The translations under genes and the position numbers were made by a program. Below, in pieces: positions 42,235-59,436 of a stretch of DNA of 64,000 bases. This DNA is from Micropruina glycogenica (lineage in GTDB: Bacteria; Actinomycetota; Actinomycetes; Propionibacteriales; Propionibacteriaceae). Positions within the stretch are counted from its first letter, which is position 1. Each line of letters begins with the position of its first letter. The notes beneath the pieces were generated by a model. That model made no database searches. It saw only the letters and a program-made list of their open reading frames with translations, and had not been told where the DNA came from. The stretch lies in contig NZ_LT985188.1 of the NCBI RefSeq assembly GCF_900289045.1, positions 3,472,001 through 3,536,000 on the forward strand. The letters run 5' to 3'.

Positions 42235-42263
42235 GTTTACGAATGCGTTTACAGGCCGTTTAC
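42235..42263 (+). promoter_or_regulatory. Three phased CGTTTAC direct repeats
   Basis: GTTTAC occurs at 42235-42240, 42247-42252 and 42258-42263, each preceded by C; the steps are 12 and 11 bases, one helical turn apart. Two copies of the same motif (GTTTAT, GTTTAC), again 11 bases apart, lie upstream of the BTAD regulator at 45286-45302. Phased direct repeats are the usual binding sites of SARP/BTAD regulators. The nearest downstream sequence to 42360 has no gene I can support. Confidence 0.5.
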
Positions 42264-42360
42264 AACGCGGGCGCAGACTTCTAGCAATCCCAGTTGTGGA
42301 GCCGGTGGTAGCCAGGGGGAAGGCCATCGACGGGGGCCGGAGCGCCGCGCAGGGGTTATG

Positions 42361-48242: not shown

Positions 48243-49112
48243 TCAGGCTAGGCGACCAGCGGTTCGCGCCCCGAGGTCGTGCCGCAGCGTCTCGGCGGCT
48301 GCGCTCACCGAATGCCCCAGCGGACGTGCCAGGTCGGCCACCGCGTCCTGGCTGCCGCCGCCGGCCAGCAGCAACGGCGCGTCGGCACCGCCGAGGTCGT
48401 GCAGGGCCAGCAGGCAGCGCCGTGCGCCGGCCACGTCGTCGGCCGTGGGCACGGCGATCACCACCGCAGCCGGCGGATGCTCCTCGACCGCGCCCACCCA
48501 GGCGTCCTCGGGCAGGTCGGCGCCCAGGTAGGCCACGCCGAGTCCGGCCATGCGAGCCAGCACGTTGAACGCGGCGAGACCCACCTCGTGATGGCTGCCG
48601 CTCGGCAGGCCGGTGAGCACCAACGGGCCGGTGGGAACCGGGGCCGACTCGAACGCCACGTGCAACTGGCGCAGCACGGCGGCGGCGACGGCGTGCTCCT
48701 GCCACACCGTGACTCTGCCGCAGCTCCAGGCCAGACCCAGTTCGTGCAGCATCGGCATCAGCCACTGCTCGATCACCACCGGCAGCGGGGCCGCCTGAAA
48801 CCGGGCGGCCAGCACCGCCTCGCGCCGGCCGGGCGCCAGCCCTGCGGCCACCGCCTCGACGAACTCGGTCGGGGACGGCAGCGACGAGACGTCGGCCGAA
48901 TCGTGCAGGGCCATCGCGGCCGCGTTGCGGGGCGTCCAACCGGCCTTGACCAGCCGGTCCATCAGTCGCACCCGCGACAGGGCGGCGTCGTCGTAGAGCC
49001 GGTAGCCGCCGGGTGAGCGATGCGGGGCGGGCAGTGGGTAGCGCCGCTCCCAGGCGCGTAGGGTCGCCGAGGGAACCCCCGTCAGCTCTGCCGCCTGCTT
49101 GATCGTGTACAC
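48243..49112 (-). CDS. litR: LitR/CarH-like B12-dependent MerR-type regulator
   Basis: A 289-residue protein. Residues 1-70 are a MerR winged helix (YTIKQAAELTGVPSATLRAW ERRY, the recognition helix, and GGYRLYDDAALSRVRLM). The middle is a helical bundle with W129-x9-E139-H140 (WSCGRVTVWQEH), the WX9EH signature of adenosylcobalamin photoreceptors. The Rossmann B12-binding part has SHHEVG (residues 173-178) in the place of E-x-H-x-x-G, with the lower-ligand His as H175. In LitR/CarH, dark B12-bound tetramers repress carotenoid genes, and light releases them. GTG 49112 is preferred because GGAGG lies five bases before it. It is divergent from the idi-crtE operon. Confidence 0.85.
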   Translation of the reverse strand: MYTIKQAAELTGVPSATLRAWERRYPLPAPHRSPGGYRLYDDAALSRVRLMDRLVKAGWTPRNAAAMALHDSADVSSLPSPTEFVEAVAAGLAPGRREAVLAARFQAAPLPVVIEQWLMPMLHELGLAWSCGRVTVWQEHAVAAAVLRQLHVAFESAPVPTGPLVLTGLPSGSHHEVGLAAFNVLARMAGLGVAYLGADLPEDAWVGAVEEHPPAAVVIAVPTADDVAGARRCLLALHDLGGADAPLLLAGGGSQDAVADLARPLGHSVSAAAETLRHDLGARTAGRLA

Positions 49113-49158: not shown

Positions 49159-49168
49159 TTAGACAAAG
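49159..49168 (+). promoter_or_regulatory. TTAGACAAAG motif before idi-crtE
   Basis: The motif lies 53 bases before the idi-crtE start and within the 108-base divergent region shared with litR. The same core (TTAGACAAAC) occurs at 58030-58021 before the crtYc operon, in the same orientation relative to the gene. A candidate LitR operator or promoter element. Confidence 0.5.
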
Positions 49169-49220
49169 CTTCGACATGGCGACAGACTGATGGCCATTCG
49201 GCCGCAGATGAGGAGTGATA

Positions 49221-50843
49221 GTGCTGAACCGCTCGGTGACCGATGACGCGGTCGTGCTGCTCAGCGAGCACGGGAAGCCGATCGGAACGGCGTCTCGGTT
49301 GAGCGTGCACACCGGCGACACCCCGCTGCACCTCGCGTTCTCAAGCTACCTTTTCGACTCCGACGGACGGCTGCTGATCACCCGGCGCGCGCTCGCCAAG
49401 CGCACCTGGCCCGGGGTGTGGACGAACTCGTGCTGCGGCCACCCGAGCCCCGACGAAGACGGCGAACAGGCCGTCCGGCGGCGGGTGCGGCAAGAACTGG
49501 GCGTCGAGATCGACGACCTGACGCTGGTGCTGCCCGACTTTCGCTACCGGGCCGTCGACGACGGCGGGGTGGTCGAGAACGAGATCTGTCCGGTGTGGGT
49601 CGGCCGCATCGACCCGGCCGGCGTCTACCCCGACCCCGACGAGATCGCAGCGTGCGAGTGGGTGCCCTGGCCCGATCTGGTGCGCTCGGTGACCGCCACG
49701 CCGCGGGCGTTCAGCCCGTGGGCGGCGCTTCAGGTGCCGCAACTGGCACCCGTGATCGACGAGCGCGGCACACCGGTGATCGAGCGGGGGGCGTGCGAAC
49801 CCCTGCCCGACGAGGCCGCCACGGTGGCCGCCGTCGACGCCCTGGTGGCCGCTGAACTGGCCGACCTGACCGGGCTCTGGCACACCTGGGTGCCCGACGT
49901 CGAGGTGCTGGCCGCCGACCTGCCCGAATGGCTGGCCGCGCTGGCGGCCCTGGGCGGCAAGCGTTTCAGGCCGCGATTGACCCACTGGGCGTTCGTGGCC
50001 GCGGGCGGACGCGTCGGTTCGGCCTACGACGACATGGTGCGGGCCGCCGCAGCGCTGGAGTTGCTGCACCTGTTCGCCCTGGTGCACGACGACGTGATGG
50101 ACGAATCGGCTTCGCGCCGGGGCGCGCCCTCGGCACACGTGCAGGCGGCGGCCTGGCACCGCGAGGCGGGCGCCGACGGCGACCCCGAGAAGTTCGGCCG
50201 CAACTTGGCCATACTGCTGGGCGATCTGGCCCACGCCCGCGCCACGCGATTGGCCGCGAGCCTGCCCGAACCGTTGCGCGGCACCTGGCACGAACTGTGC
50301 CTTGAGCTGATCGCCGGTCAGCGGGCCGACCTCACCGGTGCCGCTGCCGGACGCCGCGACCGGGTGCACGCCGAGCGCATCGCGCGGCTGAAGTCGGGCG
50401 CCTACTCGGTGGGGCGGCCGCTGCAGTTGGGCGCGCTGGCGGCGGGTGCCACAGCGGAGCAACTCGCCGTGCTGGCCGACTTCGGTGCCCACATCGGCCG
50501 GGCCTTCGCCCTGCGCGACGACCTGCTCGGCATCTGGGGCGACCCCGCGGTGACCGGCAAGCCCGCGGGCGACGACCTGGCCGAGGGCAAGGCCACGGTG
50601 ATTCTGGCTCTGGCCGCAGAAACCGTTCAGGGTGACGACGCCGACCTGCTGCGCCACCCCGAACGCGACGTGCCGGGTGCGATGCGGGCGTTGCAGCGGG
50701 CCAGCATCGATTCGAGGGTCGAAGAACTGATCTGTGACGACGTGCGGCTGGCCCGCGACGCGCTGGCCGGCGCACCGCTGGAGGCCGACGGGGTCTCGGG
50801 CCTGCTCGCGTTGGCCGCAACGATTGCGTGGCGCCAAGCATGA
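49221..50843 (+). CDS. Fusion of isopentenyl-diphosphate isomerase (type 1) and GGPP synthase
   Basis: A 540-residue protein with two complete enzymes. Residues 1-180 are type 1 IPP isomerase: catalytic Cys in TNSCCGHP (68-75) and Glu in VENEICPVW (118-126), in a Nudix-like fold. Residues 200-540 are a geranylgeranyl-diphosphate synthase: GGKRFRP (245-251), the first aspartate-rich motif HDDVMDE (289-295) and the second RDDLLGIWGD (432-441). It would supply IPP/DMAPP balance and C20 precursor for carotenoids in one chain. GTG 49221 follows AGGAG at five bases. CrtI overlaps by four bases. Split idi and crtE are the usual state, so the fusion is notable. Confidence 0.9.
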   Translation: MLNRSVTDDAVVLLSEHGKPIGTASRLSVHTGDTPLHLAFSSYLFDSDGRLLITRRALAKRTWPGVWTNSCCGHPSPDEDGEQAVRRRVRQELGVEIDDLTLVLPDFRYRAVDDGGVVENEICPVWVGRIDPAGVYPDPDEIAACEWVPWPDLVRSVTATPRAFSPWAALQVPQLAPVIDERGTPVIERGACEPLPDEAATVAAVDALVAAELADLTGLWHTWVPDVEVLAADLPEWLAALAALGGKRFRPRLTHWAFVAAGGRVGSAYDDMVRAAAALELLHLFALVHDDVMDESASRRGAPSAHVQAAAWHREAGADGDPEKFGRNLAILLGDLAHARATRLAASLPEPLRGTWHELCLELIAGQRADLTGAAAGRRDRVHAERIARLKSGAYSVGRPLQLGALAAGATAEQLAVLADFGAHIGRAFALRDDLLGIWGDPAVTGKPAGDDLAEGKATVILALAAETVQGDDADLLRHPERDVPGAMRALQRASIDSRVEELICDDVRLARDALAGAPLEADGVSGLLALAATIAWRQA

Positions 50844-52315
50844 GCCACGTCGTCGTGGTCGGCGCCGGGCTGGCCGGGCTGGCCGCCGCCTGCCACCTGG
50901 TGGGCCGCGGGCACCGGGTCACGGTGTTCGAGGCGCAGGATCGGCCCGGTGGCCGGGCCGGTGCCCTGACCCAAGACGGGTTCACCTTCGACACCGGCCC
51001 GGTGGTGCTGACCATGCGCGGGTTGCTCGCCGAGGCGTTCGAGGCCGCCGGCACCCGGCTGCAGGATCACCTGACGCTGCAGCGGCTCGACCCCGCGTAC
51101 CGGGCACACTTCGCCGACGGGTCGGTGCTGCACGTGCGGCACGGCCACGAGGCGATGCGTGACGAGATCGCCACCCACTGCGGGGCGCGTGACGCGGCTG
51201 CGTTCGACGGGTTCGTCACCTGGCTGAAGGCGCTGTACGCCGCCGAGTTGCCGCACTTCATCGACTCCAACTTCAACAGCCCCGCCGACCTGCTGCGGCA
51301 CCCGGGTGCGGCGGCCCGGCTGCTGCGACTCGGCGCCTTCGGGCGGCTCGGGCCGGCCATCGAGCGCAGGTTCGCCGACGAGCGGCTGCACCGGTTGTTC
51401 TCGTTTCAGGCCATGTACGCCGGGCTGGCGCCCGCACAGGCGCTCGCGCTGTACGCCGTGATCACCTACATGGACTCGATCGAGGGGGTCTGGTTTCCCG
51501 ACGGCGGCATGCGGGCCATCGGGCCCGCGCTGGCCGAGGCGATCACCGCAGCGGGCGGCGTCGTGCGTTGTCAGACCCCGGTCGCGCGGGTGCTGCGCCG
51601 CCCGGACGGCACGGTGACCGGCGTCCGGCTGGCCGACGGTGAGGCGGTGGCGGCCGACGCGGTGGTGCTCACCCCCGACCTGCCCGTGGCGTACGAGAAG
51701 CTGCTCGACCTGCCGCCGCCGGCGGTGCTGCGGCGCAGGCCGCGGTACTCACCCTCGTGCGTGGTGTGGCACGCCGGGGTGCTCGGCGAGCCAGAGCCGG
51801 ACGCGGCCCACCACACCATTCATTTCGGCGCCGACTGGGCGGGCGCGTTCGACGATCTGCTGCGGCGCGGGGTGCTGATGCGTGACCCGTCGCGGTTCGT
51901 CTGCCGGCCGAGCGTGCACGACGCGTCGGCCGCGCCGGCCGGCAGCCAGGCGCTGTACGTGCTCGAGCCGACGCCCAACCTTGCCGACGGCGAGCTCGAC
52001 TGGGGCGAGTCGGCGCGCTCGGCGATGCGTGACCGGCTGTTCGGGTTCATCGAGCGGGCGGGCTACTCCTCGGCGGTGCTCACCGAGCGGCTCGTCACCC
52101 CGCAGGACTGGGCCGATCAGGGCATGGCCGCGGGCACGCCGTTCGCGTTGGCCCACACGTTCGGCCAGACCGGGCCGTTCCGCCCGCAGAACGTGCGCAA
52201 GGACGCTCCGGGCCTGGTGTTCGCCGGCTCGGGCACCACACCTGGGGTGGGCATTCCGATGGTGCTGATCTCGGGCAAGCTGGCCGCCGACCGCGTCGAC
52301 GAGGTGCTGCGATGA
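50840..52315 (+). CDS. crtI: Phytoene desaturase
   Basis: A 491-residue FAD enzyme that dehydrogenates phytoene to lycopene. The N-terminal ADP-binding motif VVVGAGLAGLAAACHLVGRG and the RPGGRAG continuation, FDTGPVVLTM, and the C-terminal FAD signature FAGSGTTPGVGIPMVLISGK are the CrtI-type set. ATG 50840 overlaps the previous stop (ATGA) and its own stop overlaps crtB (ATGA), so E-I-B are one coupled operon. Confidence 0.92.
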   Translation: MSHVVVVGAGLAGLAAACHLVGRGHRVTVFEAQDRPGGRAGALTQDGFTFDTGPVVLTMRGLLAEAFEAAGTRLQDHLTLQRLDPAYRAHFADGSVLHVRHGHEAMRDEIATHCGARDAAAFDGFVTWLKALYAAELPHFIDSNFNSPADLLRHPGAAARLLRLGAFGRLGPAIERRFADERLHRLFSFQAMYAGLAPAQALALYAVITYMDSIEGVWFPDGGMRAIGPALAEAITAAGGVVRCQTPVARVLRRPDGTVTGVRLADGEAVAADAVVLTPDLPVAYEKLLDLPPPAVLRRRPRYSPSCVVWHAGVLGEPEPDAAHHTIHFGADWAGAFDDLLRRGVLMRDPSRFVCRPSVHDASAAPAGSQALYVLEPTPNLADGELDWGESARSAMRDRLFGFIERAGYSSAVLTERLVTPQDWADQGMAAGTPFALAHTFGQTGPFRPQNVRKDAPGLVFAGSGTTPGVGIPMVLISGKLAADRVDEVLR

Positions 52316-53136
52316 CCCGCACCCAGCAGTTGCTGCGCCGGCACGGCACGACCTACTGGTGGGGCACGCTGCTGCTGTCGCGCGAGCAGGCCGCAGACGT
52401 GGCCGCGGTGTACGCGGTGTGCCGGGTGGCCGACGACCTGGTCGACGAGCAGCCCGACGTCGAGGTGGCCACCCGTGACCTGTACGCCTACCGCGACGCG
52501 TTCTACGCCGCGTGGGACGGCGCCCCGACCGACGACGAGGTGCTGGCCGCGGCAACCGAGACGGTGCGCCGGCGGGGCATACCGAGGCACTGTTTCGACC
52601 GGTTCTTCGCCGCGATGGCACTCGACCTGACCCGCACGTCGTGGGCGTCGTGGCCCGACCTGCGCGACGGCTACATGGAGGGTTCGGCGGCCGTCATCGG
52701 CGAGATGATGCTGCCGGTGCTCGAACCGACCTCGCCCGGGGCGTTCGAGCCGGCCCGGTCGCTGGGCCTGGCGTTTCAGCTCACCAACTTCATTCGCGAC
52801 GTCGGCGAAGACCTCGACCGGGGTCGCGTCTACCTACCGGCCGACGAACTGGACGCCTACGGCGCCGACCCGTGGCTGCGCCGGGTGACCCCGCAGTGGC
52901 GGGCGTTTCTGGCCGCACAGCTCGTCCGCAACCGTGAGCTCTACGACGCGGCGCTGCCGGGGATCGCTTTGCTGCCGCCGCGCTCGGCCCGCTGCGTGGC
53001 CGCCGCGCATGGGCTGTATTCGCGTATTCTCGACCAGATCGAGGCGGCCGACTACGACGTGTTCAGCGCCCGCCGGCGCGTGCCGCGGGTCACCAAGGCG
53101 TTGACCGTCGCCCGGCTGATGGTCTCGGCGCGATAG
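52312..53136 (+). CDS. crtB: Phytoene synthase
   Basis: A 274-residue squalene/phytoene synthase that condenses two GGPP molecules. The first aspartate-rich motif is VADDLVDE, the second FIRDVGEDLDRGRVYLP, and the LTRTSWAS... segment between is usual. It begins within an ATGA overlap. The next gene, dcd, is nine bases downstream. Confidence 0.92.
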   Translation: MTRTQQLLRRHGTTYWWGTLLLSREQAADVAAVYAVCRVADDLVDEQPDVEVATRDLYAYRDAFYAAWDGAPTDDEVLAAATETVRRRGIPRHCFDRFFAAMALDLTRTSWASWPDLRDGYMEGSAAVIGEMMLPVLEPTSPGAFEPARSLGLAFQLTNFIRDVGEDLDRGRVYLPADELDAYGADPWLRRVTPQWRAFLAAQLVRNRELYDAALPGIALLPPRSARCVAAAHGLYSRILDQIEAADYDVFSARRRVPRVTKALTVARLMVSAR

Positions 53137-53145
53137 CCTCGCTGC

Positions 53146-53721
53146 GTGCTGCTTTCCGATCGCGACATCAGGGCCCAGATCGACGCCGGGCGTGTGGTGT
53201 TCGAGCCGTGGGATCAGGCCATGCTGCAGCCCAGCAGCGTGGACGTGCGGCTCGACAAGTTCTTCCGGCTGTTCGACAACCACAAGTACCGGGTGATCGA
53301 CCCGGCCGTCGACCAGCCCGACCTGACCCGGCTGGTCGAGGTCGACCCGTCCGAGGGTTTCGTGTTGCACCCCGGCGAGTTCGTGCTGGGCAGCACCTAC
53401 GAAACCATCACGCTGCCCGACGACCTGGCCGCCCGCGTCGAGGGCAAGTCGAGCCTCGGACGCCTGGGGCTGCTCACCCACGCCACCGCGGGTTTCGTCG
53501 ACCCCGGCTTCAGCGGCCACGTGACGCTGGAGCTGTCGAACGTCGCGACCCTGCCGATCATGCTGTGGCCGGGCATGAAGATCGGCCAGCTGGCGTTCTT
53601 TCAGCTCAGCAGCCCGTCCGAGAACCCCTACGGGTCACCGGTGTACGGCTCGCACTACCAGGGGCAGCGCGGCCCGACGGCCAGCCGCAGCCACGCGAAC
53701 TTTCACCGCGCCGAAGTCTGA
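53146..53721 (+). CDS. dcd: dCTP deaminase (dUMP-forming type)
   Basis: A 191-residue trimeric deaminase. [43 protein letters not shown] and VTLELSN are the family motifs, with the actinobacterial bifunctional type (dCTP to dUMP) indicated by the [13 protein letters not shown] segment. It makes dUMP for thymidylate. GTG 53146 is at the distal end of the crt operon; it has no known link to carotenoids. Its 3' end overlaps the convergent oxidoreductase gene by 19 bases. Confidence 0.93.
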
Positions 53722-54908
53722 AGCACCGCTTCGGCGGTACGGCGTCCCGACAGCAGGGCGCCCTGGATCGAGGCCCCTTCGACGTGGTCGCCGGCGAGGA
53801 ACACCCCGCCGCCGAGGTCGATCGGCGGACGCTGCAGGCCCGGCGGCGTGACCGGCAGGCTGTGCGGCACCTCGTGCACGGCGAGCAACTGCCAGTCGTC
53901 GGTGGGTGCGGCGTAGATCGCGGCCGCGTGGGCCAGTACCTCGGCCTCGGTCGGGGCGGGGCCGGTCAGCACGGCCGAGCACTGCACCACGTGTTGACCG
54001 GACGGCGCGTAGGTAGGGGCCACGTTCGACAGCACCGCGGAGTTCACCAGCGGGCCGCGGCGGGCGGCGTCCACGAACAGCAACCGACGCTGCGTGGGCG
54101 CCGTCGGCGCAGCGAACCACCAGGTGACCAGACCCCGCATGGGCACCGACGGTTGGCTGGTCAACTCGCCCACCGAAGCCGGGTCGACCGCCACCACGAC
54201 GGCCCGAGCCTGCAGCGGTTCGGCACCGTCGACGATCACCTCGACACCGCCTGGGCGGCGGTTGACCGCCACCGCACGGGTTTGCAGCCGCACGTCCAGT
54301 CCGTCGGTCAACGCGGCCGGCAGGGCGGCCATGCCCGCTGCCGGAACGCCCGGCGTGCCGCGCAGAAACCAGCCCACCAGCGACCGCACAAACGCCGCCG
54401 ACGTTTCGCCTTTCTCGTCGGCCAGCACGCCGGCCAGAAACGTGTCAGCCACATCACGCAGCGGCCCGGTGAAGCCTGCGGCGTCGAACGATTCGGCCAG
54501 GCGGCGGTCATCGGCCCTGGTGTCGTGCCCGTTCAGCCACCCGATCGCGGTGCGCAGTTGATGCGGCCGCAGGTACCGGCTGCCCGCGCCCCGTACCGCG
54601 GTGACCGGGTGCCGCAGCGGGTCGGCCAGCACGGTCAGGCCGTCGGCGTCGCGTACCGCCACCCCACGCTCGAACCCGCGGACGTCGAGTGACACAAGAT
54701 CGACCGCCGCGCGCAGTTCGGCGTAGGCGGGGTTCAGAAGCTGAAAGCCCCGGTCGAGCCGAAAGCCGTCCACCTCGTCGGTGGTCACCCGGCCACCCAC
54801 CCGATCGGACGCCTCGAGCACCACCACGGTGCGGCCGGCGTCGGCCAGCACCCTGGCGGCGCGCAGACCCGCGAGGCCGGCTCCGATCACGATCACGTCG
54901 GCGCTCAT
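53703..54908 (-). CDS. FAD-dependent oxidoreductase (amine-oxidase/CrtI superfamily)
   Basis: A 401-residue flavoprotein. The N-terminal [21 protein letters not shown] and [27 protein letters not shown] and the C-terminal [20 protein letters not shown] bind FAD. It is related to protoporphyrinogen oxidase and to CrtI-like desaturases, and such genes recur in actinobacterial carotenoid loci, but its substrate cannot be assigned. ATG 54908 overlaps the previous stop (ATGA). It is the last gene of the crtYc operon and overlaps dcd. Confidence 0.8.
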
Positions 54909-55228
54909 GCGGCCACCCTTTCGAGAACCAGTTCGTAGTCGGTGCGCCAGGCGGCGCCGTCGAAGGTCATCGCGAACAGCCGGTCGGTGCCGCGCTCGTC
55001 GTGGTACAGGGCGTGGTAGCTGTTGTCGGCGCCGCTGTGACCGAAGACCACCTGCAGGTCGGCACCGTCGGCGTGCCAGTGAAAGGTGACGAAGGCGTCC
55101 GACCACCAGTCGACCACCACGATGCCCGCGTTCTCGACGTCGGGTTCGGGCAGAAACCAGGCCTCGTGCATCGACGCCCGCCAGCGTCCGACCAGGGCGT
55201 CGAGTCGTTGCATCGACTCGCTACGCAT
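54905..55228 (-). CDS. Small hypothetical protein, 107 residues
   Basis: Not recognised with certainty. It has a beta-barrel-like pattern ([20 protein letters not shown], then [19 protein letters not shown] and [13 protein letters not shown]) like DUF1579-type lipocalin folds. ATG 55228 follows GAGGAG; GTG 55234 is possible. It overlaps the downstream flavoprotein gene by four bases and starts ten bases after crtU. A carrier or accessory role in carotenoid processing is a guess. Confidence 0.6.
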
Positions 55229-55237
55229 GGCCACTCC

Positions 55238-56674
55238 TCACCCCAGCAGCCCTTTCATGGGCACCGACCAGACCTCTTCGCCGGCCACCCCCCACTGGGC
55301 GAGCAGGGCGTTGGCGGCCAGCACGCCGGTGGTGGCCGCCCGCTCCATCAGGGCCACCGGAAGGTCGCAGCGCACCCAGTCGCCGGCCAGCACCAACGTC
55401 GGGTTCGGCGTGCTGACCCCGGGACGTTCGGCCCACGGCGCGGGGTCGACCAGCGCGCAGTCGTCGCGAATCAGCAGTTCACGATCGACGATGCCCGCGG
55501 TTGCGGTTTCGGGCCAGGCCCGATGCAGCTCGTCGATCAGCCGCTGCTCGATGTCGGTGGGGTCGTAGAGCGCGTAGCCGTGCAGTTCGACCACCGACCC
55601 ACCCGACGCCGCCGCCCACCTGGTGGCACCCGCCTCGAAGCGGTCGAGCACCGAGATGTTGTCGAGCGGACCGAAGCCGCTGGTGCCCACGAAGGCCGGC
55701 CGGGTTGCGTCCACCGGGGTGTCGAGCCACAGCCGCAGCACCGCGAACGGGGGAGCGTTGCGGGTGGCCGCGACCCGATCCACCCAGGTGGTGGACGCGG
55801 CGGTGCCCGCGATCAGCTCGCGGGCCGTGCGTGGGTCGGTGGCCAACACCACACCGTCGGCGCTCAGGTCGTCGAGCGACTCGACGCTGGTGTTCGTGTG
55901 CACCTCGACCCCGAGCGACGCCAGGTAGCGGCCGAGCGGCGCCCACAGGGCGGTGTCGTAGTCGTCGTCGGGCACGTCGAACAGCAGGCCCTCGGACGAG
56001 CCGAGAAAGTAGGTGTGAAACATCGCCACCAGTTCGCCGGCCGAGAACTCGTTCGGGTCGGCGAAGAAGCTGCGGGCGAACACCTCCAGGGCCAGGTCGC
56101 GGGCGGCGGCCGGAAACCGCAGCCGGTCGAGAAAGGCCGCGGCCGACTCGCCGTCGTAGTCGCTGTACGAGCCGGGAAAGTGCACCCGCACCAGTTCGAG
56201 CGCGCTGGGCAGGTCGACTTTGGGCAGGTCGGTCAGCTTGAAGGTAGGGCTGGCCAGCACGAAGCCGATGATGCTCCACGGTGGCGTGCGGGGCAGCCCG
56301 GTGAACGAATCGGTGAGTCCGTCTGGCCTGGTCAGCGGGTAGTCGTTGATCGGCAGCAGGCGGTCGAGGTTGGGGTCGGTGCGGCGCAGCAGGGCCCGCA
56401 GGTTGTAGTACTGCCGAAAGAACGCGTGAAACCCGCGACTCATGGTGCGGCCCTCGTCGAGCGGCCAGGCGCGCACCCGGCCGCCGAGTTGTGGCTCGGC
56501 CTCGTGGACGGTGACGCGCACACCTCGCTCGGCCAGCACGGTGGCGGCGGCCAGGCCGGCGATGCCGCCGCCGACCACGGCGACGTGCTGGTCGTCGGTT
56601 GCCCGAGCGGCGCCGCTGTGGCCCGGGTGCCGCACGGCCCGCGAGTCGCGGCCCGGTAGCCGTCGCGCGGTCAC
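55238..56674 (-). CDS. crtU: Isorenieratene synthase-like CrtU
   Basis: A 478-residue FAD-dependent carotenoid desaturase/methyltransferase-like protein. HVAVVGGGIAGLAAATVLAE is the dinucleotide motif, RGFHAFFRQYYNLRALLRRTDP and YFLGSSEGLLFDVP are marks of CrtU/CruE enzymes, which desaturate beta-ionone rings and move a methyl group to form aromatic end groups, and the C-terminal LAGDWVRCDLPVALMERA closes the FAD fold. GTG 56674 overlaps the crtT stop as GTGA. Together with a CrtYc/Yd cyclase this predicts isorenieratene, as in Brevibacterium linens. Confidence 0.78.
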   Translation of the reverse strand: MTARRLPGRDSRAVRHPGHSGAARATDDQHVAVVGGGIAGLAAATVLAERGVRVTVHEAEPQLGGRVRAWPLDEGRTMSRGFHAFFRQYYNLRALLRRTDPNLDRLLPINDYPLTRPDGLTDSFTGLPRTPPWSIIGFVLASPTFKLTDLPKVDLPSALELVRVHFPGSYSDYDGESAAAFLDRLRFPAAARDLALEVFARSFFADPNEFSAGELVAMFHTYFLGSSEGLLFDVPDDDYDTALWAPLGRYLASLGVEVHTNTSVESLDDLSADGVVLATDPRTARELIAGTAASTTWVDRVAATRNAPPFAVLRLWLDTPVDATRPAFVGTSGFGPLDNISVLDRFEAGATRWAAASGGSVVELHGYALYDPTDIEQRLIDELHRAWPETATAGIVDRELLIRDDCALVDPAPWAERPGVSTPNPTLVLAGDWVRCDLPVALMERAATTGVLAANALLAQWGVAGEEVWSVPMKGLLG

Positions 56675-57375
56675 GCCGGCCGCCCGGCGCGGATCACGTG
56701 CAGAATGCCCTGCTGCCAGCCCGGCACGGTGCGGCTTTCGACCTCGGTGAAACCAGTGGCGTGCAGGCGTCTGACGAAGCGCGGCACCGAGTCGAACTCG
56801 AGCACGCTGCGTTCGAGGTAACGGTAGAGGCCGTGGTTGCCGCCGGTCACGGTGGCCAAAGGTAGGATCACCGTTTCGCACACCGCGCGCCAGATGCGCG
56901 CCGCCCGGGCGTCGCCCGCCACCGAATACTCCAGCACCACCAGGGCACCGCGCGGGCGCAGCGCTTCGAACGCGTCGGCCAGGACCTGGTCACGCTCGCC
57001 TTCGGGCACGTTGCGAAACAGGTAGGAGGCGAGTACGCCGTCCACCGGTTCGTCGAGCAGCGAGGCCAGTTCACCGGCCCGTCCTTGGGTGAAGGTGACG
57101 CCGGCCGGCCACTGCTTGGCCCGGGCCTGATCGAGCATGCCGCCCGAGGCGTCGATGCCCGCGATGGTGACCACGTCGCCGAAGGCGCCGAGCAGGGCTT
57201 TGGTGGACGCCCCCGAGCCGCACCCCAGGTCGACCAGCGTGCGGGCGTTCGGCACCAGTTCGGCCAAGGCCTGCGCAGCGCGGCGCAGGTGCTGGTGGTA
57301 GCCGGGGTTGAGCCCGACCAGCAGGTCGTAGCGGGTGGCCCCGGCGTCGAACCCGCGGGTGACTTCTGCGCTCAT
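56671..57375 (-). CDS. SAM-dependent methyltransferase (CrtT-like)
   Basis: A 234-residue class I methyltransferase related to UbiE. The SAM motif is LVDLGCGSGASTKALL, then GIDASGGMLDQAR and LVVLEYSVAGDARAARIW. Methyltransferases of this kind (CrtT) sit beside crtU and crtY in Streptomyces; their step is not settled. ATG 57375 overlaps the crtYd stop by four bases and its own stop overlaps crtU, giving tight coupling. Confidence 0.78.
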   Translation of the reverse strand: MSAEVTRGFDAGATRYDLLVGLNPGYHQHLRRAAQALAELVPNARTLVDLGCGSGASTKALLGAFGDVVTIAGIDASGGMLDQARAKQWPAGVTFTQGRAGELASLLDEPVDGVLASYLFRNVPEGERDQVLADAFEALRPRGALVVLEYSVAGDARAARIWRAVCETVILPLATVTGGNHGLYRYLERSVLEFDSVPRFVRRLHATGFTEVESRTVPGWQQGILHVIRAGRPA

Positions 57376-57683
57376 TCAGCCCTCCGGTGGGTCAGTTTGT
57401 GCCAGGTCAGCAGGGTGAGGGTGACCATCGCGAAACCGAAGCCGAAGTCTTCGATCGGTATGTCGAACGGAAACCTGATGCCGCTGAACTGGTCGGGGTA
57501 GTAGATGACGATCGGGTCGGACAGTTTGGTCAGCCAGCCGTCGACCCAGATCTGAAAGAAGAACACCAGGGCCATCGACAGCCAGTACTGGGCGGTGCGC
57601 AGAATGCCGGTGCGTAACCAGAAGAACTCGATCGCGAGAACGCCCAGCACCGCAACGATGGTGAACAGCGTGTACTCACCCAT
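57372..57683 (-). CDS. crtYd: Lycopene cyclase subunit (CrtYd-type)
   Basis: A 103-residue membrane protein with three helices. The cyclase-domain motif is FDIPIEDFGFGFAMVTLTLL (PxE/D pair), and IYYPDQFSGIRFPF precedes it. It is the second subunit of the heterodimeric lycopene cyclase found in actinobacteria. Its start overlaps the crtYc end by eight bases. Confidence 0.82.
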   Translation of the reverse strand: MGEYTLFTIVAVLGVLAIEFFWLRTGILRTAQYWLSMALVFFFQIWVDGWLTKLSDPIVIYYPDQFSGIRFPFDIPIEDFGFGFAMVTLTLLTWHKLTHRRAE

Positions 57684-58002
57684 CGCGGCCTCGAAGTCGC
57701 TTGAGCACCGTGCCTACCGCTTCATAGGTGAGCAGGCCGCAGATCGGAATAACGATGAAGAACACCAGCTCTTCGAGCGGCATCACGCCCAAGTGCACGC
57801 CGGTGATGAAGTCGGGGTTGTACGTCCAGTGCAGGCGCACGATGCCGATCACGTCCCACACGCTGAAGAGCAGCACGGTGGGCACCAGCGCCAGCACCGC
57901 GAGCCGCCAGCGGGCGTACACCCGGGCACCCAAGACGAGTTCGAGGGGCAGGGTGATCACCAGGCAGCCGAGCATGAGCAGCAGGTACTGGTAGTGCTGC
58001 AC
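57676..58002 (-). CDS. crtYc: Lycopene cyclase subunit (CrtYc-type)
   Basis: A 108-residue, three-helix membrane protein: WTYNPDFITGVHLGVMPLEE LVFFIVIPICGLLT carries the conserved PLEE glutamates of the lycopene cyclase domain. It acts with CrtYd to form rings on lycopene; beta-rings are likely because crtU is present and crtEb absent, but epsilon-rings cannot be excluded. GTG 58002 follows GGGAGG; GTG 58008 overlaps that site. First gene of the six-gene operon. Confidence 0.85.
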   Translation of the reverse strand: MQHYQYLLLMLGCLVITLPLELVLGARVYARWRLAVLALVPTVLLFSVWDVIGIVRLHWTYNPDFITGVHLGVMPLEELVFFIVIPICGLLTYEAVGTVLKRLRGRDG

Positions 58003-58020
58003 GGCCACCTCCCGTCCAAG

Positions 58021-58030
58021 GTTTGTCTAA
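58021..58030 (-). promoter_or_regulatory. TTAGACAAAC motif before crtYc
   Basis: Reads TTAGACAAACCTTGG toward crtYc, 19-28 bases before its GTG. It shares the TTAGACAAA core and orientation with 49159-49168. Candidate element for co-regulation of both carotenoid operons. Confidence 0.5.
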
Positions 58031-58032
58031 CC

Positions 58033-59343
58033 CTATCGGTCGGGTGGCGGTGGGTGCGCGTCGAGGTGCCACATCATGGTTGTTTCGCCGGTTGACCAGG
58101 TGGTGAGGTCGTCGGTGGCTTGGTTGGTGACTCGGTAGTGCTGGTGGTGGGGGCTGGTCCACCAGAAGACGCCGCTGGTGGGTTGTCGTAAGTGCCAGCG
58201 TTTGGCGGTTTTGGCGCGGTGGACGCCTCTGGTGAGGGGGCCGAGGTTGTCGGGTCGGGTTTGGTTTTCGACGCCGTCGACGTAGGGGATGGTGTGGTCG
58301 AGGTCGAGCCGTCGGGCCGAGCGTGAACTGTGCGGGAAGATTTCGCAGACGTCGCGCAGCAGGACGGACTCTTGGATGCGGTCGGGTATTTCGTAACTGT
58401 CAACACCGGGTTCGGTGCCTTCGTGGATGACGGGGGTGATGGTGAGGCGGTGGGTGCCGAACAGGTCACGGAGTTGGTCACGCACCAGAGGGCCGAGGGT
58501 TTCACCACGGACGACGTGATTCTCGCCGGTGAGCATGGTGTCGGTGAGGTGCAGGTAGATCTTGGTGCGGGGCAGGTACCGCTTGTCGTCACGACCTTGG
58601 AGTAGAGCAAGAGCTCGTGCGGGGGTGGCGAGGATGCCGAGCGCTTTCGAACGGCGCACGTCGAGTTCGTCGGTGTCACCTTGGGCGGCCAGATTCTTGG
58701 CGATGGCGGCGATGGTTGCTTCGAGTTGCTGGGCGTCAGCGGTGTCGAGCCGTGCCCACAACTCAGTCACGACGGGTTGTTCGGTGGTGGCGGTGCGCAC
58801 GTAGCGTTCGGCGCGGGCTTGGTCGGCTGCTGCTTTCACGGCGTCGGCGGCGATGATTGCGATCAGCCCACGCGCGAGCCGCATCAACCGTGCCCAGCCG
58901 ATACGGCCGTACTTCGACGCGAGTCGTTGATCGAGATCGTGCGCTTGTTCGACGTTCAGGTCGTAACGGGCAGCCAACTGAGTGAGCTGAAACGCCCGGT
59001 ACGGCTGAACCTGGCCCTTCTGCACAGAACTCCACAGCATCGGGTGCCGGTCGTGCAGGTTCAGCACGTCACGAATCAACCAGGTCGCGGCAGCCACTGA
59101 GATCGCCTTGATCGCTGCCACTTCGAGGGGCAGGAACTCACCGACGAGTGCGGTGCCGTCGGCACCGATACGCACGGCCCGTTCACCGGTCACGTCGAAC
59201 TCGTCATTGGTGGTCCAGCCATGCTCGCAAGCCAGGTCTGCGACCGCCTGCAGTTCGATCGCGTCGGCTTGCCGGCGGAGGTCTTGAGCATGGCGCAGCC
59301 GTTGCACCGCTGACTGCGGCACCCCCTCAACAACTACGCTCAT
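58033..59343 (-). CDS. 13E12-family DUF222/HNH protein, second copy
   Basis: A 436-residue relative of the protein at 1253-2596. The DUF222 helical region is present, with WLIRDVLNLHDRHPMLWSSV and YRAFQLTQLAARYDLNV, but the C-terminal HNH lacks the zinc Cys residues: LDLDHTIPYVDGVENQ, then PDNLGPLTRGVHRAKT. The DNA is visibly less G+C-rich than the crt genes, a sign of separate history. It ends 31 bases before the crtYc GTG, on the promoter side, so it sits between that operon and unrelated DNA. Confidence 0.8.
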   Translation of the reverse strand: MSVVVEGVPQSAVQRLRHAQDLRRQADAIELQAVADLACEHGWTTNDEFDVTGERAVRIGADGTALVGEFLPLEVAAIKAISVAAATWLIRDVLNLHDRHPMLWSSVQKGQVQPYRAFQLTQLAARYDLNVEQAHDLDQRLASKYGRIGWARLMRLARGLIAIIAADAVKAAADQARAERYVRTATTEQPVVTELWARLDTADAQQLEATIAAIAKNLAAQGDTDELDVRRSKALGILATPARALALLQGRDDKRYLPRTKIYLHLTDTMLTGENHVVRGETLGPLVRDQLRDLFGTHRLTITPVIHEGTEPGVDSYEIPDRIQESVLLRDVCEIFPHSSRSARRLDLDHTIPYVDGVENQTRPDNLGPLTRGVHRAKTAKRWHLRQPTSGVFWWTSPHHQHYRVTNQATDDLTTWSTGETTMMWHLDAHPPPPDR

Positions 59344-59436
59344 GTGTTCGATTATAGATGTATATAGCGTACCAATCAAGCATTCTGATCATACTTATCC
59401 ATTCATCATCTTGGCAGCGGTGCTTGTGGGCTGGCA

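Follow-up and report, generated by a model that had tools for sequence, protein, structure and literature searches.

Introduction

What does the carotenoid (crt) gene cluster of Micropruina glycogenica make, and do the last two genes of its main operon act on the product? The cluster lies in a 64,000-nucleotide stretch of the genome (assembly GCF_900289045.1, contig NZ_LT985188.1, positions 3,472,001 to 3,536,000), here called the window, whose own numbering is used throughout. The minus strand carries crtYc, crtYd, crtT and crtU, followed by the genes for a 107-residue protein (P5) and an oxidoreductase of the flavin adenine dinucleotide (FAD) type (P6). A sequence-only reading had predicted an isorenieratene pathway and proposed P5 and P6 as possible modifiers of the end product. 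Comparison with related genomes and loci indicates, with good confidence, a light-regulated isorenieratene-type cluster of two convergent operons, in which P5 would be decaying and P6 accessory. Streptomyces species make isorenieratene. Brevibacterium also produces it, according to a passage of PMC2889829. Among the matches listed by our literature search, none contains the word Micropruina.

Results

The six minus-strand genes span 53703–58002. Neighbours overlap by 8, 4, 4 and 4 bases, with a single 9-base gap between crtU and P5; coordinates and family scans (Table 1) bear out the earlier description of a six-gene operon with small overlaps and short gaps. The order crtYc-crtYd-crtT-crtU is kept at 71–84% identity in the closest relative, Micropruina sp. 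KQZ13P-5 (G003/L192), which argues that the run does not consist of chance open reading frames. CrtU and P6 are two FAD enzymes of the amine-oxidase fold (PF01593), NCBIfam methyltransferase models score CrtT under their own cut-offs, and P5 has no family match in the Pfam and NCBIfam scans.

To place CrtU, we searched 57 genomes including the window's own (the relatives set), of which 55 gave some match, mostly weak and short. One strong CrtU was found in the window's genome and strong ones in 22 others (E 2e-82 or better; in two pieces in 2 of them), while the match in G001 is partial and at a contig edge. A scan of genome contigs provided the best 80 matches as named CrtU loci, Brevibacterium linens ATCC 9172 among them. 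The CrtU tree has 31 rows: the window, 26 of these loci chosen by hand, two Streptomyces plasmid CrtUs and two outside enzymes. In it the window's CrtU and that of KQZ13P-5 form a pair at 100/100, and a 100/100 actinobacterial clade holds the window, B. linens ATCC 9172 and Streptomyces, with the CrtU-like enzymes of Thiodictyon and Calothrix falling outside it. The sequence-only reading had named a CrtU outside the isorenieratene synthases as the contrary outcome; when this was checked, the window's CrtU nested within the actinobacterial CrtU clade.

Identity to B. linens ATCC 9172 is 62% for crtYc, 55% for crtYd and 58% for crtU, and the same core recurs among the named loci in KQZ13P-5, Tessaracoccus, Enemella and others. 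As expected of an isorenieratene-type cluster, the locus holds geranylgeranyl diphosphate (GGPP) synthase, phytoene synthase, phytoene desaturase, lycopene cyclase and CrtU. Families, gene order and CrtU phylogeny support the proposed pathway of the isorenieratene type, in which crtT accompanies a split cyclase like that of Brevibacterium, and the predicted core crtYc, crtYd, crtT, crtU is a set of an already known kind. CrtYcd and CrtYef are homologous, as a passage of PMC2889829 states, and the cyclase pair could conceivably act like CrtYe/Yf to give a C50 or non-aromatic cyclic carotenoid. We consider such a product very improbable, given a CrtU that belongs to the actinobacterial clade and matching cyclase pairs beside crtU in many named CrtU loci.

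Three features lie beyond the earlier reading: a plus-strand partner operon, a LitR/CarH-type gene and shared operator-like sites. The partner operon (idi-crtE, crtI, crtB and a dcd-like gene) converges with the minus-strand operon, and the 3' end of its dcd-like gene overlaps the end of the P6 gene by 19 nt. Its first gene fuses isopentenyl diphosphate isomerase (IDI) to GGPP synthase and may start at a GTG two codons downstream of 49215. Fusion could be tested only where the two genes lie close together on one strand, which is not so in 49 of the 80 named loci; in the other 31, both share one stop-free frame in 17 and are separate in 14. They are also fused in 7/12 genomes of the relatives set, and the fusion extends to Propioniciclava, Tessaracoccus, Enemella, Ornithinimicrobium, Serinicoccus, Kineosphaera and others. 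A literature search judged by titles and abstract openings found no paper on a natural IDI-GGPP synthase fusion, which is weak evidence of absence; by their titles and abstract openings, papers containing "idi-crtE" look like engineered assemblies.

The regulator gene is divergent from idi-crtE, has a likely GTG start at 49112 and encodes Wx9EH and HHEVG motifs; we take Wx9EH and HxxG to be the photoreceptor motifs of CarH/LitR. According to a passage of PMC5401885, the LitR of S. coelicolor is a photoreceptor that depends on B12; one in PMC9304148 defines the CarH half-site as a direct repeat of 11 bp (nnnnTnnACAn) that occurs in tandem. The names litQ, litR and litS are applied to an unrelated cluster in a passage of PMC10616846. 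In front of both idi-crtE and crtYc stands a 17-base site; the two sites are alike in 15 of 17 bases and have a 9-base word in common. The 17-bp pattern, which was drawn from these two sites themselves, matches the window exactly at 2 places where 0.04 would be expected, and nowhere else in the single-contig 3.84-Mb genome is there an exact match. A further operator-like site, differing at 2 positions, lies at C1:557539-557555 (L284), a locus with an aldo/keto-reductase-like frame (named by eye). In KQZ13P-5, the site recurs before crtYc with 1 mismatch and before idi with 2.

As an independent test, the published tandem repeat was sought in the 47 of 80 named loci that had an IDI match and sufficient upstream DNA. 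It occurs upstream of idi in 9 of them, against 0.17 expected from the remaining DNA of the loci, and its presence follows that of LitR (6/7 loci with LitR versus 3/40 without; Fisher p 5e-5, not corrected for relatedness). With almost the same 17-bp site, of a form that fits CarH direct repeats, in front of each pathway operon, light control of the two by the B12 regulator is likely.

P5 relatives are rare: 3/56 other genomes of the relatives set (E 0.01), 8/393 others in a larger class set of 394 genomes (E 1e-4; for most genomes the class searches scored only 2–4 first-look candidates, and paralogues can be missed) and 0/80 named CrtU loci (E 1e-6). Compared with nine relatives of 139–158 residues, P5 lacks about 36 internal residues against all nine. 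The gap falls between two positions that are tryptophan in most of the nine and takes out the QRF and WE motifs common to all of them; a full-length C-terminal third was not found. The best PDB sequence match, a nanobody at E 0.0023, is not believable. P5 is probably a decaying, internally deleted gene and a likely dead passenger, though an assembly error is a conceivable source of the gap. The proposal that P5 modifies the end product is left unsupported by the missing residues and the lack of a relative in the named CrtU loci. Both P5 and P6 are absent from the crt locus of KQZ13P-5, and the comparison suggests that their position is a variable insertion site. In their place KQZ13P-5 has about 0.8 kb with an apparently frameshifted frame (L036 8469-9242) that resembles, by eye, a sugar-binding regulator domain.

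P6 looks intact. Its model (mean pLDDT, the predicted local distance difference test score, 82) has an amine-oxidase/protoporphyrinogen-oxidase fold, and the best 50 matches of a fold search are general relatives of that fold only. Of the Pfam families, P6 reaches only broad ones at the level of the fold, such as PF01593, and among the best 25 of 94 NCBIfam models it reaches no equivalog cut-off (best, HpnE, 68.6 bits versus 283). The family occurs in 145/394 class genomes. Its commonest context is epimerase-P6-lipB-lipA, of which 26 of the 62 neighbourhoods examined (hand-picked, not random) show at least a part. In the lip-type context (26 loci, L131-L171), P6 relatives stand between an epimerase (Epimerase + DUF1731) and lipB-lipA in many actinobacteria, small-genome lineages among them.

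P6 or a relative also lies near crt genes in G002, G016, G024 (apparently broken), G133, G409, S. atratus, G247 and G319, and relatives occur in 9/80 named CrtU loci (Phycicoccus, Nostocoides, Ornithinibacter, Streptomyces). The copies in Streptomyces and Phycicoccus/Nostocoides crt clusters are 35–50% identical to the window's. P6 lies directly beside crtU in G016 and G319, and in S. atratus the relative sits between a LitR-type gene and the crtY operon. P6 and CrtU are at most 15 kb apart in 4/26 class genomes having both; without the window's own, the count is 3/25 against a rough expectation of 0.13, calculated as if every genome were a single contig (Poisson p 3e-4).

Trees were built from 108 P6 sequences (85 distinct), leaving out the broken G024 copy (L114, 275 residues). 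The window's P6 pairs with that of G002 (99/79 in the careful tree, 83 in the quick one). On the quick tree the crt-linked label changes 6 times, at least 5 of them forced by starred branches; on the careful tree it changes twice, with fewer linked rows known and 51 ungrouped rows uncounted. L242, whose P6 is in two pieces through an apparent frameshift, is out of the quick tree and counted in the 9/80, and L160 was crt-linked in the careful tree via a crtT-like match and relabelled as not linked in the quick one.

Two alternatives to an accessory P6 bear on these data. P6 could be a relocated general flavoprotein without a carotenoid substrate, kept by chance or by shared light induction, as the lip-type context and the breadth of the family without co-occurrence with CrtU would favour. 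This view is credible but somewhat improbable, as the linkage of P6 to crt clusters is above chance level and has more than one origin, and the position in S. atratus also speaks against it. Alternatively, P5 and P6 could be dedicated tailoring genes turning isorenieratene into a new end product. The co-directional 4-base overlap of the two genes, the adjacency to crtU in other genomes and the occurrence near crt genes in several lineages fit this idea. It is nevertheless unlikely: P5 is internally deleted, P6 was not found in 51/77 CrtU class genomes or in KQZ13P-5, many P6 loci are of the lip type, and the crt cluster of G133 contains P6 although no CrtU match was obtained there at E 1e-60. 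Strong CrtI matches (E 1e-85 or better) are enriched among the P6 genomes (111/145 versus 141/249 of the rest; Fisher p 8e-5, not corrected for relatedness), with weak matches in 10 and none at E 1e-50 in 24. Those 24 count against the tailoring view, and a strict carotenoid enzyme is not supported.

P6 reads as a recurrent accessory gene that has joined crt clusters repeatedly, and it is classed as accessory because those 51 CrtU genomes have no detected copy. To our knowledge, the P5 and P6 types are not in the classic isorenieratene gene sets. The sequence-only reading had likewise placed both outside those sets, but P6 relatives do recur in crt clusters. A stronger version, in which P6 is a light-induced flavoenzyme of the carotenoid pathway (for tailoring, or for redox help where a Rieske/DUF5914 protein is lacking), recruited independently from the lip-locus family and defining together with the IDI-GGPP synthase fusion an undescribed aromatic-carotenoid sub-type, seems doubtful to us. 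The literature search returned no paper containing SCO0192.

Within the relatives set, the Rieske/DUF5914 protein occurs in 14 of the 56 genomes besides the window's own, 13 of these 14 with CrtU, and has no match in several other CrtU genomes (e.g., G003, G002, G011, G034, G052). DUF5914 proteins close to crtU/crtB (L083 17450-18463 and relatives) carry a Rieske domain. P6 as a stand-in for this protein was rejected as a rule: KQZ13P-5 (G003), G004, G011 and G013 have CrtU with neither gene matched, and G319 and S. atratus carry both.

At the crtYc end of the operon, a DUF222/HNH-endonuclease-like gene (58033-59379) lies between crtYc and an alanine dehydrogenase (AlaDH)-like gene; the DUF222-like and AlaDH-like genes were named by eye. 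In KQZ13P-5, crtYc is about 59 bp from the AlaDH-like gene, leaving no space for the DUF222-like gene.

Table 1. Positions, strands and supporting matches of features in the crt locus (HTH, helix-turn-helix)
Feature	Position in window	Strand	Remarks
crtYc, lycopene cyclase subunit	57676..58002	-	PF18916 and TIGR03462 over cut-off
crtYd, lycopene cyclase subunit	57372..57683	-	8-base overlap with crtYc; PF18916 and TIGR03462 over cut-off
crtT, UbiE-like methyltransferase	56671..57375	-	4-base overlap with crtYd; PF01209 over cut-off
crtU, beta-carotene desaturase/methyl-migrating aromatase (isorenieratene synthase type)	55238..56674	-	GTG start; 4-base overlap with crtT; PF01593
P5, 107-residue protein, internally deleted relative of a ~147-residue family	54905..55228	-	9-base gap from crtU
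P6, FAD oxidoreductase, amine-oxidase fold	53703..54908	-	4-base overlap with P5; PF01593
LitR/CarH-type regulator, MerR HTH and B12-binding domains	48243..49112	-	PF13411 60.5 bits, PF02607 29.7 bits, over cut-off
Operator-like site 1, two perfect tandem 11-bp CarH-type repeats (TAGACA, TCGACA)	49159..49176	+	Between regulator and idi-crtE
Operator-like site 2, one perfect (TAGACA) and one imperfect repeat (TGGACG)	58014..58030	-	In front of crtYc
idi-crtE, IDI-GGPP synthase fusion	49215..50843	+	542 codons; NF002995 254.6 bits, over cut-off; NUDIX and polyprenyl_synt domains
crtI, phytoene desaturase	50828..52315	+	TIGR02734 472 bits, over cut-off
crtB, phytoene synthase	52312..53136	+	Sole PF00494 match found in genome
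dcd-like gene (dCTP deaminase, named by eye)	53146..53721	+	Adjoins crtB

Discussion

We propose that the LitR/CarH-type regulator, carrying adenosylcobalamin, would in darkness occupy the 11-bp repeats before idi-crtE and crtYc and keep both operons off, and that light would release it and turn both on, as homology and the operator pattern suggest. Judged by families, gene order and CrtU phylogeny, the fused IDI-GGPP synthase would supply GGPP, CrtB phytoene and CrtI lycopene; the CrtYc/CrtYd pair would yield beta-carotene, and CrtU would aromatise its rings to isorenieratene. CrtT, a conserved methyltransferase, is left without an assigned step. P6 is probably co-transcribed and light co-induced, and may have an accessory redox role, in carotenoid tailoring or in photoprotection, that is dispensable for isorenieratene itself.

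Several observations weigh against this account. The regulator scores 19.8 bits with PF02310 (cut-off 32.1) and 116.5 bits with the NCBIfam CarH model (cut-off 400), so it is CarH-like yet not filed under that model. Site 2 has a single perfect repeat, and L250 has LitR without a repeat upstream of idi. Taken by itself, the degenerate tandem-repeat pattern does not reach significance (2 in the window versus 0.39 expected; 6/100 shuffles reach 2), and the second of these two TnnACA tandem matches, at 42248-42264, lies outside the crt region and within chance expectation. P6 does not co-occur with CrtU beyond chance (26/77 CrtU genomes versus 119/317 others, p 0.6). The Rieske/DUF5914 protein has no match in the window's genome at E 1e-10 and none in the window; as 13/22 other strong-CrtU genomes of the relatives set carry it, the CrtU electron route here lacks that candidate.

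Together, these comparisons add Micropruina to the bearers of isorenieratene-type clusters that are likely controlled by B12 and light, and the cluster supplies a compact, directly testable operator. They also separate a probably dead passenger gene, P5, from a flavoprotein with comparative support, P6. The IDI-GGPP synthase fusion and the repeated recruitment of P6 are among the most original points, and the natural fusion offers a ready model for pathway engineers who make such assemblies artificially.

Among known systems, the B. linens crt cluster resembles that of the window in holding crtE, crtI, crtB and crtYc-crtYd-crtU in one block (L219); it differs in crtI and crtB, which show only about 29% identity to their counterparts in the window, and in that crtT, LitR and IDI, all present in the window, were not detected in its locus. 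The CarH systems of Thermus, Bacillus and Myxococcales share the MerR and B12 domains, the Wx9EH motif and tandem 11-bp TnnACA repeats, whereas the window's regulator falls below the NCBIfam CarH cut-off and its binding and light response are predictions. KQZ13P-5 keeps LitR, the idi-crtE fusion, crtI, crtB, dcd, crtU, crtT, crtYd and crtYc in the same order, but has the broken frame where P5 and P6 stand and lacks the space for a DUF222-like gene. The Streptomyces cluster, whose gene names we take to be crtEIBV/crtYTU and lit, has a CrtY-family lycopene cyclase in place of CrtYc/Yd and, at the crtV position, the Rieske/DUF5914 protein, which is unmatched in the window's genome. In the pairing of crtT with crtU, the LitR-type regulator and the two convergent operons it is like the window, and some Streptomyces clusters carry a P6 relative as the window does.

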